A stretch of DNA of 48,545 nt, taken from the NCBI GenBank assembly GCA_013140765.1, contig JABFSE010000013.1, forward strand, positions 1 through 48,545. Reading direction: 5' to 3'. Below are positions 26,983-31,171 of the stretch, one piece after another. The stretch's first letter is position 1. Each line of letters begins with the position of its first letter. Made by a program: the position numbers and the translations under genes. The notes under the pieces are model-generated. The model saw only the letters and a list, made by a program, of their open reading frames with translations. It had not been told where the DNA came from and searched no databases. The DNA comes from Sulfuriferula sp. (lineage in GTDB: Bacteria > Pseudomonadota > Gammaproteobacteria > Burkholderiales > Sulfuriferulaceae).

Positions 26983-27047
26983 AATCCGCTCCTGATGAGG
27001 AGTGCTATTATAAGCGAGATGCTGGCTTGCCGCTAATTTAGCGTAGT

Positions 27048-27755
27048 CTACTGTACCGACTCAGATGAGGATTTATGATGTTTAATCGCGAGTTGGTAAA
27101 TGCGCATTAAATCGTGCTCGTTGACATCGATATACGAGTCGATTTGCGCGAGCGCATAGACAAAGTCTGCGTGTGAAATTGCTGGGTAGGGGGTGATGAC
27201 TTCGCTGGGTTTTTCCATTTTGTCGATGGCAAAATAAACGGGGTAACGGCGGCTAGGGTTAAACCAGCTAAATGCGATAGCGGTCAGTAAAATAATGGTG
27301 ACATTGATGATGACGGGTTCTAGTATAAATAAATAGCCTAGCGCGTGTAGTTTTTCTCCCCCCATCACGGCGACTAATGCGGTTGCGCCACCAGGTGGAT
27401 GTATGCACCGTAAATAGTGCATTGCGCCCACGGCAACGGCGACAGCTAAAGGGGCTGCCAACCAGGTGATAGTCACTAATTTAGCGCAACTTACGCCTGC
27501 AATTGCTGATATGACATGACCGCCAAATACCGCCCATGGCTGCGACAACCCGCCATGTGGCACTGCAAATAAGAGCACTGCTGATGCGCCCATGGAGGCG
27601 ACCATGATAAGCGCAATGTGTGCCTGTAAAAAGTAATCGGATATTAAGAAAACGCTCAGTATTCCAAAAAATGCACCTGTAATGGCTATCCAGCGTTCAG
27701 TGTGGCTTACAGGGGTGAAATCTAGTCCAATAATGGCGAATAGCTTTTGACGCAT
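27048..27755 (-). CDS. HPP family membrane protein
   Basis: A 235-residue protein with four or five hydrophobic helices and the family's signature CIHPPGGATALVAVMGG. MASMGASAVLLFAVPHGGLSQP-like sequence lies before it. Plant HPP proteins have been linked to nitrite transport; bacterial ones are little studied. I start at the ATG at 27755 because the longer frame overlaps the end of a decayed upstream gene on the same strand (stop at 27776). That gene has an NsrR-like operator upstream, so this locus may answer to nitric oxide. Confidence 0.82.
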   Translation of the reverse strand: MRQKLFAIIGLDFTPVSHTERWIAITGAFFGILSVFLISDYFLQAHIALIMVASMGASAVLLFAVPHGGLSQPWAVFGGHVISAIAGVSCAKLVTITWLAAPLAVAVAVGAMHYLRCIHPPGGATALVAVMGGEKLHALGYLFILEPVIINVTIILLTAIAFSWFNPSRRYPVYFAIDKMEKPSEVITPYPAISHADFVYALAQIDSYIDVNEHDLMRIYQLAIKHHKSSSESVQ

Positions 27756-27775
27756 TGCATGATTCCAGATGTAAA

Positions 27776-28158
27776 TTAGCGTTCGATGGGCACTGTTAAA
27801 TCTTGCCAATCTTCGCGTCCAGCGCGAAAAATATCCCATAGCCCAAATGGAATAACGGTAATGGCAATAACGCACCAGATGGCGAACAATCTATACCAGC
27901 CATGAATAAACTACTAAAAGGCTGACCGAGCACCATCATAGCACCGACAGCACCTTAAAATCGATACCCTGAGATGCGCGTGTAATAGGCTGTACGTGTA
28001 TTTGGATGGTAGGCAACAGACGAATAAACGAATATAGAAGCGGCAATCCAGAGTAATAATAAGGGCGCAATGAGCGTAGCTGTAATGCTGGTGATGTTAA
28101 ATAATCGTGCAGAAAATAAAGATTGCGCCGCTGTTATTGATTTTATTTCCGTCATCAA
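27776..28158 (-). pseudogene. decayed small membrane protein gene (nonsense plus frameshift)
   Basis: The first frame runs from an ATG at 28158 through a hydrophobic helix to YYTRISGYRF and then meets TAA (27955-27957). Reading past that stop gives GAVGAMMVLGQPFSSLF, a plausible continuation. A change of frame near 27900 then gives WYRLFAIWCVIAITVIPFG and WDIFRAGREDWQDL, ending at TAA 27776-27778. The joined product would be about 127 residues with three hydrophobic segments. Two disabling changes suggest a recent loss. Family not named. It lies 20 nt upstream of the HPP gene. Confidence 0.6.
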
Positions 28159-28193
28159 TGCCCCCGTAGTTCAGAAGTGTGTGCGATATATTA

Positions 28194-28216
28194 AACAAGC
28201 AGTTAAAATGCATCTT
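28194..28216 (-). promoter_or_regulatory. NsrR-like operator upstream of the HPP locus
   Basis: On the minus strand AAGATGCATTT, one base, then AACTGCTTGTT. The first arm is a perfect NsrR half-site and the second matches 8 of 11 positions. A TTGACA (28235-28230) lies 13 bp upstream, so the site would fall over the promoter of the decayed gene and the HPP gene. Confidence 0.5.
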
Positions 28217-28260
28217 ATCAGCCCGTCACTGTCAAGTCGCTGACGATAGCCGCTGTGTGA

Positions 28261-29232
28261 TTATCGCTTATGGTTAATTAAGTAAGCATCTGCATAAATA
28301 TCATTCATTTTAGCGCCCGCTAGATAGGCTTTTTTGCGTGCGCTGGTGACCATGTTGGGATTGCCGCATAAAAATATACGCCAGCCAGCTAAGTGTGGAT
28401 GCGCTACGAATGCGACATCCATTGCGCGCCCTGCTTGGTATCGATTGTCTATGTTAGTGCTTGATACGCAAGGAACATAGTGAAAATTAGAATAATGCAC
28501 GGTCATTTCACATAGCTCATTAACCAGATACAGCCCCGTGACATCATGGCTGCCATGATACAAATAGATGTCGCCAAAATGCCTGTGATTAAGCGCGTCG
28601 CGGATGATACCCATGAGTGGCGCAAGCCCAGAACCAGTACCGATTAACAGCAACGGTTGTTGTGGTGTATCAGGCACATAAAAACAAGCGCCGACGGGCG
28701 CGCTAATTTGCACGCGGTCGCCTACTTTTAATTCATTATGAATCCAGTTGCTCACTCGTCCATCGGGCATGCGCCGCACATGCAAACGTAGATAAGGATC
28801 GGTTGGCACGCTTGCGAGTGAATAGCTACGAGTATTATCATTATCTTGATAGAGGTTGATAAATTGCCCCGCATGATAATTTTGCAAGCTCGGACAATCC
28901 AAGCCCACACATTTTATGTCGTCATTCAATTGTCGTACTGCGGTCACCGTTGCGGATAGTAATCTATCGGCGTTGTCAGGCAAGGTGATAGTCATATCCT
29001 CAGTCGGATAACAGACACATGCCATAAAATAATTTTGTGCTTGTAACGTAGGTTTTAATCCATTTTGCGCAGTGATGGGTACATTTGCGCTACTTGATTG
29101 CATGACACAGGTTTGGCATATTCCGTTACGGCAAGAATAAGGCACTGCTACACCTGAACGTGTTAAGGCATCCAATACCGTTTCGTCTGCATTGCATTGG
29201 TAGCGTACTTGGTTCACCGTTAATTGTGCCAT
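28261..29232 (-). CDS. 2Fe-2S ferredoxin-linked FAD/NAD(P)H oxidoreductase
   Basis: A 323-residue protein in three parts. A plant-type 2Fe-2S ferredoxin domain (1-90) has Cys34, Cys39 and Cys42 in SCRNGICQTC and the last ligand at Cys72 or Cys74. An FAD-binding barrel carries RSYSLASVP (near 135). An NAD(P)H domain carries LLIGTGSGLAPLMGI (near 198) and the late FLCGNPNMV. It would carry electrons from NAD(P)H through FAD to the iron-sulphur centre. It is 10 nt downstream of a truncated haemoglobin gene and is its probable reductase. AAGGAAA precedes the start. Confidence 0.9.
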   Translation of the reverse strand: MAQLTVNQVRYQCNADETVLDALTRSGVAVPYSCRNGICQTCVMQSSSANVPITAQNGLKPTLQAQNYFMACVCYPTEDMTITLPDNADRLLSATVTAVRQLNDDIKCVGLDCPSLQNYHAGQFINLYQDNDNTRSYSLASVPTDPYLRLHVRRMPDGRVSNWIHNELKVGDRVQISAPVGACFYVPDTPQQPLLLIGTGSGLAPLMGIIRDALNHRHFGDIYLYHGSHDVTGLYLVNELCEMTVHYSNFHYVPCVSSTNIDNRYQAGRAMDVAFVAHPHLAGWRIFLCGNPNMVTSARKKAYLAGAKMNDIYADAYLINHKR

Positions 29233-29242
29233 GCTGTTTCCT

Positions 29243-29611
29243 TTATTTACCTAGTACATCATTGCGCGTGGTTTCGCAGACTACACCCACTTCAGCAATC
29301 AGCTCGGCAGGTACGTTGAGCGCTTGTAATGATGCGACTAAGTTTTCAACTACGGCATCAAAATGGCTGTCGTTTAAGCCTCGCGTCACTAAGTGCGCAT
29401 GACCTTTACGCATATCAGCACCCGTGTAATGCACGGGACCGCCAAAAGCCATAGTCAAAAAAGCCTTTTGTTTCGCAGCTTGGTGTTCCATATCAACATC
29501 ATCAAAAAAATCACTAATACGTTCATCGCTCAATACCCGACGATAAAACACATCCACCGCCGCGTTCACTGCGGCATCACCGCCTATTTTTTCATACAGA
29601 TTTGCACTCAT
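29243..29611 (-). CDS. group 1 truncated haemoglobin
   Basis: A 122-residue protein beginning MSANLYEKIGGDAAVNAAVD, the GlbN pattern. B10 Tyr is Tyr23 (VFYRRVL), and the proximal His is His71 in MRKGHAHLV. Group 1 globins bind O2 and NO and can oxidise NO to nitrate if re-reduced. I start at 29611, where GGAG is well placed; a longer frame extends into the operator region and lacks support. The gene is under an NsrR-like operator and is followed by a ferredoxin reductase, so NO detoxification is the likely role. Confidence 0.93.
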   Translation of the reverse strand: MSANLYEKIGGDAAVNAAVDVFYRRVLSDERISDFFDDVDMEHQAAKQKAFLTMAFGGPVHYTGADMRKGHAHLVTRGLNDSHFDAVVENLVASLQALNVPAELIAEVGVVCETTRNDVLGK

Positions 29612-29719
29612 TATCAAGCTCCTGAAAATAGATGTATATAAAATACATGTTATTGGATATAAAAAATGGGGCACGCTACCCCGCTCCGATGTAAAATGAA
29701 ATGGAAGAATAAGTCATTT

Positions 29720-29742
29720 AAGATGCATCTTGAATGTATCTT
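29720..29742. promoter_or_regulatory. NsrR operator
   Basis: AAGATGCATCT, T, GAATGTATCTT: an 11-1-11 inverted repeat close to the NsrR consensus (AAGATGCATTT-N-AAATGCATCTT). It sits in the divergent region between the haemoglobin and nsrR genes and covers the -10 element of the haemoglobin promoter. Confidence 0.85.
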
Positions 29743-29767
29743 ATATAATACTTGCTATTTTTGTCAA
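29740..29767 (-). promoter_or_regulatory. promoter of the haemoglobin-reductase operon
   Basis: On the minus strand TTGACA (29767-29762), a 16-bp spacer, then TATAAG (29745-29740). The -10 overlaps the NsrR operator, so a bound repressor would block RNA polymerase. A TATAAT at 29744-29749 on the plus strand could be the nsrR -10, but its -35 is poor. Confidence 0.65.
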
Positions 29768-29785
29768 GCATAAGTAACCACTAAT

Positions 29786-30226
29786 ATGCAACTTACTCAA
29801 TATACAGATTACTCATTACGTGTGCTTGTTTATCTCGGCATGAAAAATGACGGCAGAGCAACGATTACTGAGCTGGCTGATTATTACCAAATTTCGCGTA
29901 ATCACTTAGTAAAAGTGGTGCATAACTTAGCGCAGCAGCAGCTCATTTTGACGCAGCGTGGTAAAAATGGAGGCATGTCTCTAGCGCGACCTGCTAATCA
30001 GATTAAAGTTGGCGATGTTGTCCGACTGACAGAGCCAAATTTCCATATCGCCGAATGTTTTAATAACGTAAGTAATAAATGCGTACTTACGCCGAATTGC
30101 CGCTTAAAATCAATACTATATCAAGCTAATGTTGCATTTTTGACTATCTTGGACAATTACACTATTGCCGATAGTATAGTCGGTTTAACCGTATTCAAGC
30201 CCGATAACAGCCATGCACAAGGCTAA
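29786..30226 (+). CDS. nsrR: Rrf2-family NO-sensing repressor, NsrR-like
   Basis: A 146-residue protein with a winged HTH (about 24-66, ELADYYQISRNHLVKVVHNLA and GKNGGMSLARP). It has three Cys for an iron-sulphur cluster at 91, 99 and 105 (AECF, KCVLTPNC), with Asp8 as possible fourth ligand. This matches NsrR rather than IscR. NsrR loses DNA binding when NO nitrosylates its cluster. The divergent haemoglobin operon with a matching operator supports the assignment. No ribosome binding site is obvious. Confidence 0.88.
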   Translation: MQLTQYTDYSLRVLVYLGMKNDGRATITELADYYQISRNHLVKVVHNLAQQQLILTQRGKNGGMSLARPANQIKVGDVVRLTEPNFHIAECFNNVSNKCVLTPNCRLKSILYQANVAFLTILDNYTIADSIVGLTVFKPDNSHAQG

Positions 30227-30245
30227 TCTAGCGCAGACCTTGTGC
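30215..30245. terminator. hairpin between convergent nsrR and ndh remnant
   Basis: GCACAAGG (30215-30222) pairs with CCTTGTGC (30238-30245) over a 15-nt loop that contains the end of the nsrR stop region. There is no T-run, so this may be a weak or factor-dependent end. Confidence 0.4.
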
Positions 30246-30252
30246 CTATGCG

Positions 30253-30885
30253 CTAATGGAGTTTAACCCGTGCGCGCGTGGGCGAGCTGATTAGGTGTGC
30301 GTAGGTACTGAGCAGCGTTTTTACCCAGCCATGTAGGGCAATTTGGTGCATTTTGTGCAGAGACCAATACATGAAACGCGCCAGCAAGCTTTCAATAATG
30401 ATGCCACCAGAGAAGCTACTCATAAGATTGCCGACAGTGGAGGATTGTCCCAGCGTAATAAGTATGCAGTGTTCGGCAACACCTGGGATACCAAAATCAT
30501 TAGCAATTGAGCCGACAGAAATGACTAAGGTATCGTAGTGAAAGTGGCGACGTGGGATGATTTCTATCCCACCTTCGTCTAAAGTAGGCGCAACGCTAAC
30601 TGTTTTTTGCGTGCGATCAAGCGCATCCATGCGTCCAAGACGAAAGCGGAAATGATTCCAGTGCCCTTGTGCGAGGTACTCCAGTCGTTCGGCATACGAG
30701 TCCAGACTGCCTGCGGCGACTTCATACAGCAATGGTTTCCATAGATGTGATGGCGAGGCATCTATCAGCGTGATATTGGCGCGTTTTTGCTTGCCCAATT
30801 GATTGCCTAGCTTAGTCGCCAGTTCCAATCCATCCGCACACACACCAACAATAATAATTTCGTGTATGGATTACTGTGTTTGCAT
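30253..30885 (-). pseudogene. ndh: type II NADH dehydrogenase remnant
   Basis: What remains is the N-terminal FAD region (GLELATKLG, then LIDASPSHLWKPLLYEVAAGSLD and FHYDTLVISVGSIANDFGIPG). It is joined directly to the membrane-binding C-terminus (SSTVGNLMSSFSGG, then LLARFMYWSLHKMHQIALHGW). Roughly 200 central residues with the NADH-binding domain are missing from a normal length near 430. The likely ATG at 30885, with GAGGTG upstream, is followed by a stop after four codons. The dinucleotide motif GxGxxG is changed to GVCADG. Three separate lesions make this a dead gene. Confidence 0.85.
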
Positions 30886-30985
30886 GACGACACCTCATCG
30901 TGTTCGGTTTTTTTAATGATACGATACAATGAGATAGTGGTGAAATGTATTTTGTAAAATTTTGCTATAACAATTAGCGCGTAAG

Positions 30986-31171
30986 CTATACCGCATCCTG
31001 CTTACGGATTTCTTCAGCTGTTATGCGAACCAGCCGATCGTTTTTCATGACGATAATTGCTGTGTTGGTAAACACAGCTTGCTGGCGTGCCATCATTGCT
31101 GCTCGGCGCATCGCGATGAGTGAATTAACCAGATCTTGGTCTTTCGCTGTGCTCAATTCGTTTTGTGTCAT
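30986..31171 (-). CDS. small protein paired with the zeta-like ATPase
   Basis: A 61-residue protein (MTQNELSTAKDQDLVNSLIAMRRAAMMARQQAV, end TAEEIRKQDAV), mostly helical and charged. I take the ATG at 31171 because it overlaps the stop of the zeta-like gene in ATGA; a longer start at 31186 lies inside that gene. The coupling suggests a partner, perhaps an antitoxin. Epsilon antitoxins normally precede zeta, however, and this gene follows it. No DNA-binding motif is evident. Confidence 0.65.
   Translation of the reverse strand: MTQNELSTAKDQDLVNSLIAMRRAAMMARQQAVFTNTAIIVMKNDRLVRITAEEIRKQDAV

Follow-up and report, generated by a model that had tools for sequence, protein, structure and literature searches.

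Single-domain haemoglobins destroy nitric oxide (NO) in the test tube, and their re-reduction in the cell is the missing piece. The available text of Smagghe et al. (2008) calls for the identification of cognate reductases rather than more ligand-binding analysis (PMC2323109). In its available part, the study of Rodionov et al. (2005) predicted an NsrR-controlled glbN-lpg2536 operon in Legionella pneumophila (PMC1274295). Gardner (2012), as far as that text is available, cites this proposal and argues that ferredoxin reductases donate electrons to truncated globins. Here we analyze a stretch of 48,545 nucleotides from the 2.18 Mb genome of a Sulfuriferula sp. (contig JABFSE010000013.1; hereafter the window), in which a truncated haemoglobin gene is directly followed by a reductase gene. 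We consider it probable that the two proteins form an NsrR-controlled two-component NO dioxygenase, for which induction, electron transfer and catalysis are all predicted steps. The idea is not new, and the Sulfuriferula pair is a further case of the kind predicted in 2005. As far as the open-access literature goes, our analysis adds the breadth of the system, its exclusion of the flavohaemoglobin Hmp, natural fusions and a leader hairpin found in 9 of 13 genomes. A named candidate reductase beside one globin subfamily, with fused relatives, makes the question of re-reduction directly testable. If true, this reading would provide an NO defence for Sulfuriferula species without Hmp.

The locus shares its gene make-up and regulator with the Legionella operon and, as far as tested and as far as the available text of the 2005 study goes, lacks the same genes. 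By a longer pattern with up to 3 mismatches, the globin-reductase operon is the sole NsrR target in the window's genome. That genome has no match to full-length Hmp and none to NnrS, Hcp or ScdA_N, the last being the domain through which dnrN was probed. It also has no NirK match; further enzymes that make or reduce NO lay outside the search. Unlike the Legionella case, ours comes from another genus, and its reductase is likened to lpg2536 by description, not by sequence. In the open-access literature, covered mostly through titles and the beginnings of abstracts and with subscription papers outside it, we found neither a published test of a pair of this kind nor biochemistry of the reductase, and lpg2536 appeared in PMC1274295 only.

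The pair resembles Hmp in expected function, in NsrR control (as described in the available part of the sources) and in having a FAD/NAD(P)H reductase domain that belongs to one superfamily with that of Hmp. However, Hmp joins a 3/3 globin to its reductase in a single chain that lacks a 2Fe-2S domain, whereas here a separate truncated globin, which we take to have a 2/2 fold, stands beside a three-domain reductase. Vitreoscilla haemoglobin also belongs to the 3/3 globin class. By description, the Sulfuriferula pair resembles it in that a single-domain globin is served by a separate cognate NADH-dependent reductase (PMC2323109, available text). Family profiles liken the Sulfuriferula globin to cyanoglobin/GlbN (2HZ2, 150.8 bits) and trHbN (HbN 1IDR, 80.8 bits). 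In the available parts of the sources, no native reductase is established for those globins, whereas the Sulfuriferula globin has a linked candidate.

Globin, reductase and operator region

The globin gene lies at 29243-29611 on the minus strand and encodes a group I truncated haemoglobin of the GlbN/trHbN type with 122 residues (Pfam Bac_globin, PF01152, 69.5 bits, cut-off 21). Its best solved matches are cyanoglobins and group 1 globins, and no NCBIfam model matched it. We prefer the ATG at 29611, a methionine unchanged across 13 homologues, as the start, and did not adopt a longer open reading frame (ORF) that begins with GTG at 29674. The reductase gene (28261-29232, minus strand, 323 residues) begins 10 nt past the globin stop codon. 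Its product combines 2Fe-2S, FAD and NAD(P)H domains (Fer2, FAD_binding_6 and NAD_binding_1), each exceeding its Pfam cut-off. Globin and reductase are separate ORFs, not the one chain of Hmp. The Hmp model NF009805 scored 80.4 bits against the reductase (cut-off 432) and covered the reductase part only; flavohaemoprotein 1GVH scored 77 bits. Likeness at near full length is to three-domain oxygenase reductases, namely the P450 reductase 5OGX (209 bits) and the benzoate dioxygenase reductase 1KRH (139 bits), and the BenC model scored 141.5 bits. In contrast to those proteins, the Sulfuriferula reductase remains under every NCBIfam cut-off listed (25 of 28 families) and has a globin, not an oxygenase, as its neighbour.

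An origin by splitting of Hmp was rejected, the globin being of truncated group I and the reductase nearest to oxygenase and P450 reductases. The original prediction, made from the letters of the window, had used the name "split flavohaemoglobin". The pair is predicted to work like Hmp, but the name misleads on origin because both the globin class and the reductase type differ from those of Hmp. The span given there, 29243 to 30226, covered the globin and the regulator but omitted the reductase gene that its text described. The arrangement itself had been read correctly: ORFs, Pfam domains and Cys91, Cys99 and Cys105 agree on a globin and a reductase 10 nt apart, divergent from an Rrf2 protein with three cysteines.

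This Rrf2-family regulator of the NsrR type is encoded at 29786-30226 on the plus strand, as judged from Pfam (PF02082, 119.7 bits), NCBIfam and individual residues. Its best NCBIfam equivalog is NsrR (NF008240), with a score under the curated cut-off. Besides the three cysteines, the protein carries Asp8 and Arg12, and all five residues align with Streptomyces NsrR 5N07. We take their roles to be those in the Streptomyces protein, with the three cysteines and Asp8 as cluster ligands.

Two NsrR boxes precede the globin gene, each with 1 mismatch to the published motif gATGyAT-N5-ATrCATc (PMC1274295, available text). The distal box (29720-29742, core 29722-29740) overlaps the -10 of the globin promoter, and the proximal box (29629-29651, core 29631-29649) lies 17 nt before the globin start codon. 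Two sites at 1 mismatch in the window compare with 0.05 expected, and 0 of 100 shuffles reached two. The original prediction had recognized the palindrome over the -10 but overlooked the proximal box. For the globin operon, the best promoter-like site, TTGACA-18-TAAGAT (29738-29767, minus strand), is a consensus match at 10 of 12 positions, and the promoter scan overall was at chance (12 sites versus 10.1 in shuffles). The distal box covers five bases of its second hexamer. Tandem boxes are found again in several relatives, and the two boxes are spaced 91 nt apart in the window and in the loci L006, L009, L038 and L039. Where available, the text of PMC1274295 mentions tandem NsrR sites for Bacillus subtilis hmp but not for Legionella, and it mentions no leader hairpin.

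We also scanned the whole genome with this longer NsrR-site pattern, allowing up to 3 mismatches. The three matches were the distal box, the proximal box and a weak third box behind the reductase gene (28194-28216); a reversed control pattern gave 1 match. We downgraded the third box, as its 3 mismatches to the published motif are at chance (9 matches, 9.89 expected). Judged by sequence, the operon in the window is very likely under NsrR control.

Distribution of the pair and its relation to Hmp

A search of related genomes for conserved adjacency, which the original prediction had proposed, bore the linkage out. In a first survey of 100 genomes, the window's own included, 34 had some globin match. 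A close globin homologue (70 to 90% identity) occurred in 12 genomes besides the window's. In all 12, the reductase adjoins the globin on the same strand with gaps of 2 to 26 nt, and nsrR is divergent in 11, the twelfth locus lying at a contig edge. At 17 loci of more distant globins, neither gene was found within at most 1.5 kb on each side (tblastn E up to 1e-4). We observed one globin piece in a genus-mate (G001, C1:1386430-1386540), with 37 residues at 70% identity in a 62-residue frame, which is perhaps a remnant.

A wider contig scan with the single reductase sequence gave no matches, and a scan with the globin alignment gave at least 561 stretches that encode relatives. The best 80 were analyzed. 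Several of these are genomes of the 100-genome survey again, and the set leans to close relatives because only the best 80 were kept. Among them, the reductase is directly downstream in 75 (median gap about 25 nt, range 4 to 276, counted from match ends), and nsrR is divergent within 500 nt in 42. The five unlinked loci comprise three two-globin ORFs (L050, L078 and L092, the last on a contig that stops 301 nt behind the globin), one globin with an N-terminal extension (L100) and one unreadable locus near a contig end (L114). The pair is also present in methanotrophs. A Methylobacter contig (L101, 1657-5094) carries two complete globin-reductase pairs face to face, with nsrR beside just one.

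Linkage was also frequent in a class-wide sample of 369 genomes from 272 genera. At a globin cut-off of E up to 1e-20, the globin was found in 67 genomes (87 places) and in 51 genera, and 50 of the 67 carry the linked pair. Viewed from the reductase, the globin immediately precedes 50 of the best 62 places (E up to 6.3e-77). There were 37 unlinked globin places, and 16 of them belong to two-globin frames (272 to 297 residues), each place being one half of such a frame. Over all surveys, we noted frames with two truncated globin domains (about 270-297 residues) in L050, L078, L092, G138, G360, G372, G379, G498, G548, G602, G612 and G643. Where checked, these have no reductase behind them.

We next considered sites and residues. 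For each upstream region, the best NsrR site was scored by the number of the 14 published motif positions that it matches, leaving out L101, where the best globin is on the other strand. All 42 nsrR-linked regions reached at least 11 of 14 positions, compared with 90 of 2100 shuffles (4%). At least 12 positions were matched in 36 of the 42 (15 of 2100 shuffles) and at least 13 in 20 (0 of 2100). In the proteins, we examined 22 chosen positions across 75 rows, comprising 74 linked loci and the window. The reductase cluster cysteines C34, C39, C42 and C72, the flavin motif R135-x-Y137-S138, and G200 and G202 are unchanged in 75/75. T199 is kept in 73, and C289 and G290 in 74, the remaining row apparently having a gap there. 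The globin residues F22, Y23, F36, Q44, K47, Q48 and H71 are likewise unchanged in every row, and V75 is kept in 72. For both proteins, the invariance is partly built in because the loci were chosen by similarity. Guided by the cyanoglobin alignment, we take H71, Y23, Q44 and Q48 to be the F8 histidine, the B10 tyrosine and the E7 and E11 glutamines.

The globin and Hmp did not occur together. In the 100-genome survey, 13 genomes (the window's own included) have this globin, 12 have full-length Hmp and none has both. We repeated the comparison in 300 genomes of the order, Burkholderiales, using E up to 1e-30 for the globin and E up to 1e-90 for full Hmp. The globin was present in 26 and Hmp in 45, again with no genome carrying both; 3.9 co-occurrences were expected (hypergeometric P = 0.012, uncorrected for relatedness). 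Within the window's genus, and also within family f20, some members have the globin and others have Hmp.

Reductases found apart from this globin were informative as well, and they make up 12 of the best 62 reductase places. In three genomes (L147, L148 and L149), a single ORF encodes the reductase followed by a C-terminal Bac_globin domain (37, 34 and 34 bits, cut-off 21). The domain order, reductase first and globin last, is the reverse of that in Hmp. All three fusions also bear a cysteine-rich end, and by eye those of L147 and L148 share neighbours. In a fourth genome (L152), the gene for a different truncated globin overlaps the reductase gene. The fusions independently suggest that reductases of this type serve globins. 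Separately, L150 (1326-2456) encodes a protein that combines a ZapG-like part with a C-terminal truncated globin.

Proposed function and alternative explanations

We propose that NsrR, carrying an NO-sensitive Fe-S cluster, would occupy both boxes and repress the operon. NO would damage the cluster and NsrR would be released. The oxy-ferrous truncated haemoglobin would then convert NO and O2 to nitrate, leaving ferric haem. Electrons would pass in the reductase from NAD(P)H to FAD and on to the 2Fe-2S domain, from which the haem would be re-reduced. The original prediction had reached the same two-component NO dioxygenase. Linkage, conserved operators, the lack of overlap with Hmp in the sampled genomes and the fusions support it well, and the chemistry is a predicted part.

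Several observations weigh against this function or narrow its reach. Of the 12 pair-bearing related genomes, 5 also have NnrS, and the pair thus does not stand alone in every case. Of 79 loci, 37 have no nsrR within 500 nt. In the upstream regions of these 37, at least 11, 12 and 13 motif positions were matched in 13, 7 and 4 cases (75, 4 and 0 of 1850 shuffles). As the other 24 have no 11/14 site, NsrR control is usual, not universal, as far as the sites tell. In the class sample, 17 of the 67 globin-bearing genomes have unlinked globins only, as judged on the best 62 reductase places. Part of the reductase NAD-domain motif, N291 and P292, is variable. The globin domain of the fusions is from another truncated-globin subfamily, so the fusions speak for reductases of this type and not for this particular reductase-globin pairing.

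The pair could be NsrR-controlled and yet have a main job other than NO dioxygenation. The reductase would then keep the globin ferrous to reduce NO or nitrite in the absence of O2, to remove peroxide or to deliver O2, for example. Peroxidase activity has been proposed for a class 1 globin (PMC3820574, available text). In Methyloprofundus INp10, the ten protein genes with the highest transcription include one for a group I truncated haemoglobin, and in the part available the authors suggest just a possible NO response (PMC8788690). The loci that lack both a nearby nsrR and a site point in the same direction. However, sites accompany every nsrR-linked region, the globin and Hmp are never together in 300 genomes and the distal-pocket residues are intact, and we regard another main job as unlikely. 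A different explanation is that the neighbours are co-regulated without being partners, with the reductase serving another NO-stress protein or a housekeeping acceptor. The nearest solved relatives of the reductase reduce P450, benzoate dioxygenase and other oxygenases. Of the eight unlinked reductases other than the fusions and L152, seven have no globin neighbour by the profiles used, and the eighth (L160) is at a contig edge. Globin and reductase distances correlate only moderately (r = 0.55 over 74 loci, with a printed P value that ignores relatedness), which says little because the two genes are inherited together. Against this explanation stand the pairing in 75 of 80 loci at a short median gap, the fusion of such reductases to a globin and the second complete pair of L101, which together make mere co-regulation quite improbable.

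The regulator could also be another Rrf2 protein, IscR- or RirA-like, that senses iron or Fe-S status and not NO. Its score fails the curated NsrR cut-off (137.5 versus 182 bits), and the RirA model reaches 122 bits. However, NsrR is the best model, the operator matches the NsrR motif, and Asp8 and the three cysteines align with the Streptomyces protein. We consider an iron or Fe-S sensor highly improbable. These comparisons favour the NsrR-controlled two-component NO dioxygenase.

Leader hairpin and neighbouring genes

A terminator-like hairpin (GGGGTA-GCG-TGCCCC followed by a T run, 29661-29682, minus strand) lies between the two boxes of the window. We searched for a GC-rich hairpin with a T-rich run upstream of the globin in the window and 12 relatives. 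It was present in 9 of the 13 genomes, 71 to 91 nt before the globin (window, L006, L009, L014, L039, L040, L044, L062 and L089), compared with 8 of 650 shuffles. All 7 pair-bearing members of the window's genus have it. It also occurs in 2 of the 6 remaining genomes of the order, among which G061 offers just 159 nt upstream. The stems vary (GGGGTA/TGCCCC, AGGTC/GACCT, AGGGC/GCCCT, GGGCG/CGCCC and others). The hairpin sits between the proximal and distal boxes, except in L044 and L089, where no distal box passes the threshold and the hairpin closely precedes the proximal box. A ATTTTACATCG-like stretch precedes the hairpin in several loci. Among the 80 upstream regions, window included and many related, 15 have such a hairpin, versus 2.25% of shuffles.

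The window's own hairpin is not distinctive. Terminator-like elements in 27000-31000 were at chance (5 versus 4.1 expected), the leader folds no more stably than shuffles (z = -0.22), and an RNA family search of 27900-30400 returned nothing of note. RNAalifold on 12 leaders gave a weak consensus. The claim for the hairpin rests on its recurrence at one place with different stems. A leader-peptide attenuator was rejected, as no reading frame is kept in the leaders by eye. Because the T run follows in the direction of the globin, the hairpin could end transcripts from the distal promoter, acting as an attenuator or yielding an NsrR-controlled short RNA.

A broader and more tentative view joins this hairpin to the two-component NO dioxygenase. 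The pair may represent a widespread NO dioxygenase class in its own right, put together from a truncated globin and a 2Fe-2S/FAD reductase independently of Hmp. This class would replace Hmp and exist both split and fused in reverse order. In Sulfuriferula and some relatives, two NsrR boxes would flank a terminator, so that NsrR would also control a short leader or regulatory RNA. We regard this combination as possible, though doubtful as a whole.

The remaining genes of the neighbourhood lie on either side. An HPP-family membrane protein is encoded at 27048-27875 on the minus strand (Pfam TM_HPP, 163.8 bits), with its true start probably inside the GTG frame. HPP proteins can transport nitrite, and in 10 of 80 homologous loci an HPP gene follows the pair in the same orientation. 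Between it and the reductase gene, a membrane-protein-like ORF of 66 residues (27955-28155, minus strand) ends at an in-frame stop with more open sequence behind. It has no homologue among the loci compared and is possibly a decayed gene. Beyond nsrR, the ORF at 30253-30843 matches just positions 13-125 of the 291 in the Pyr_redox_2 model and looks like a shortened dehydrogenase gene.
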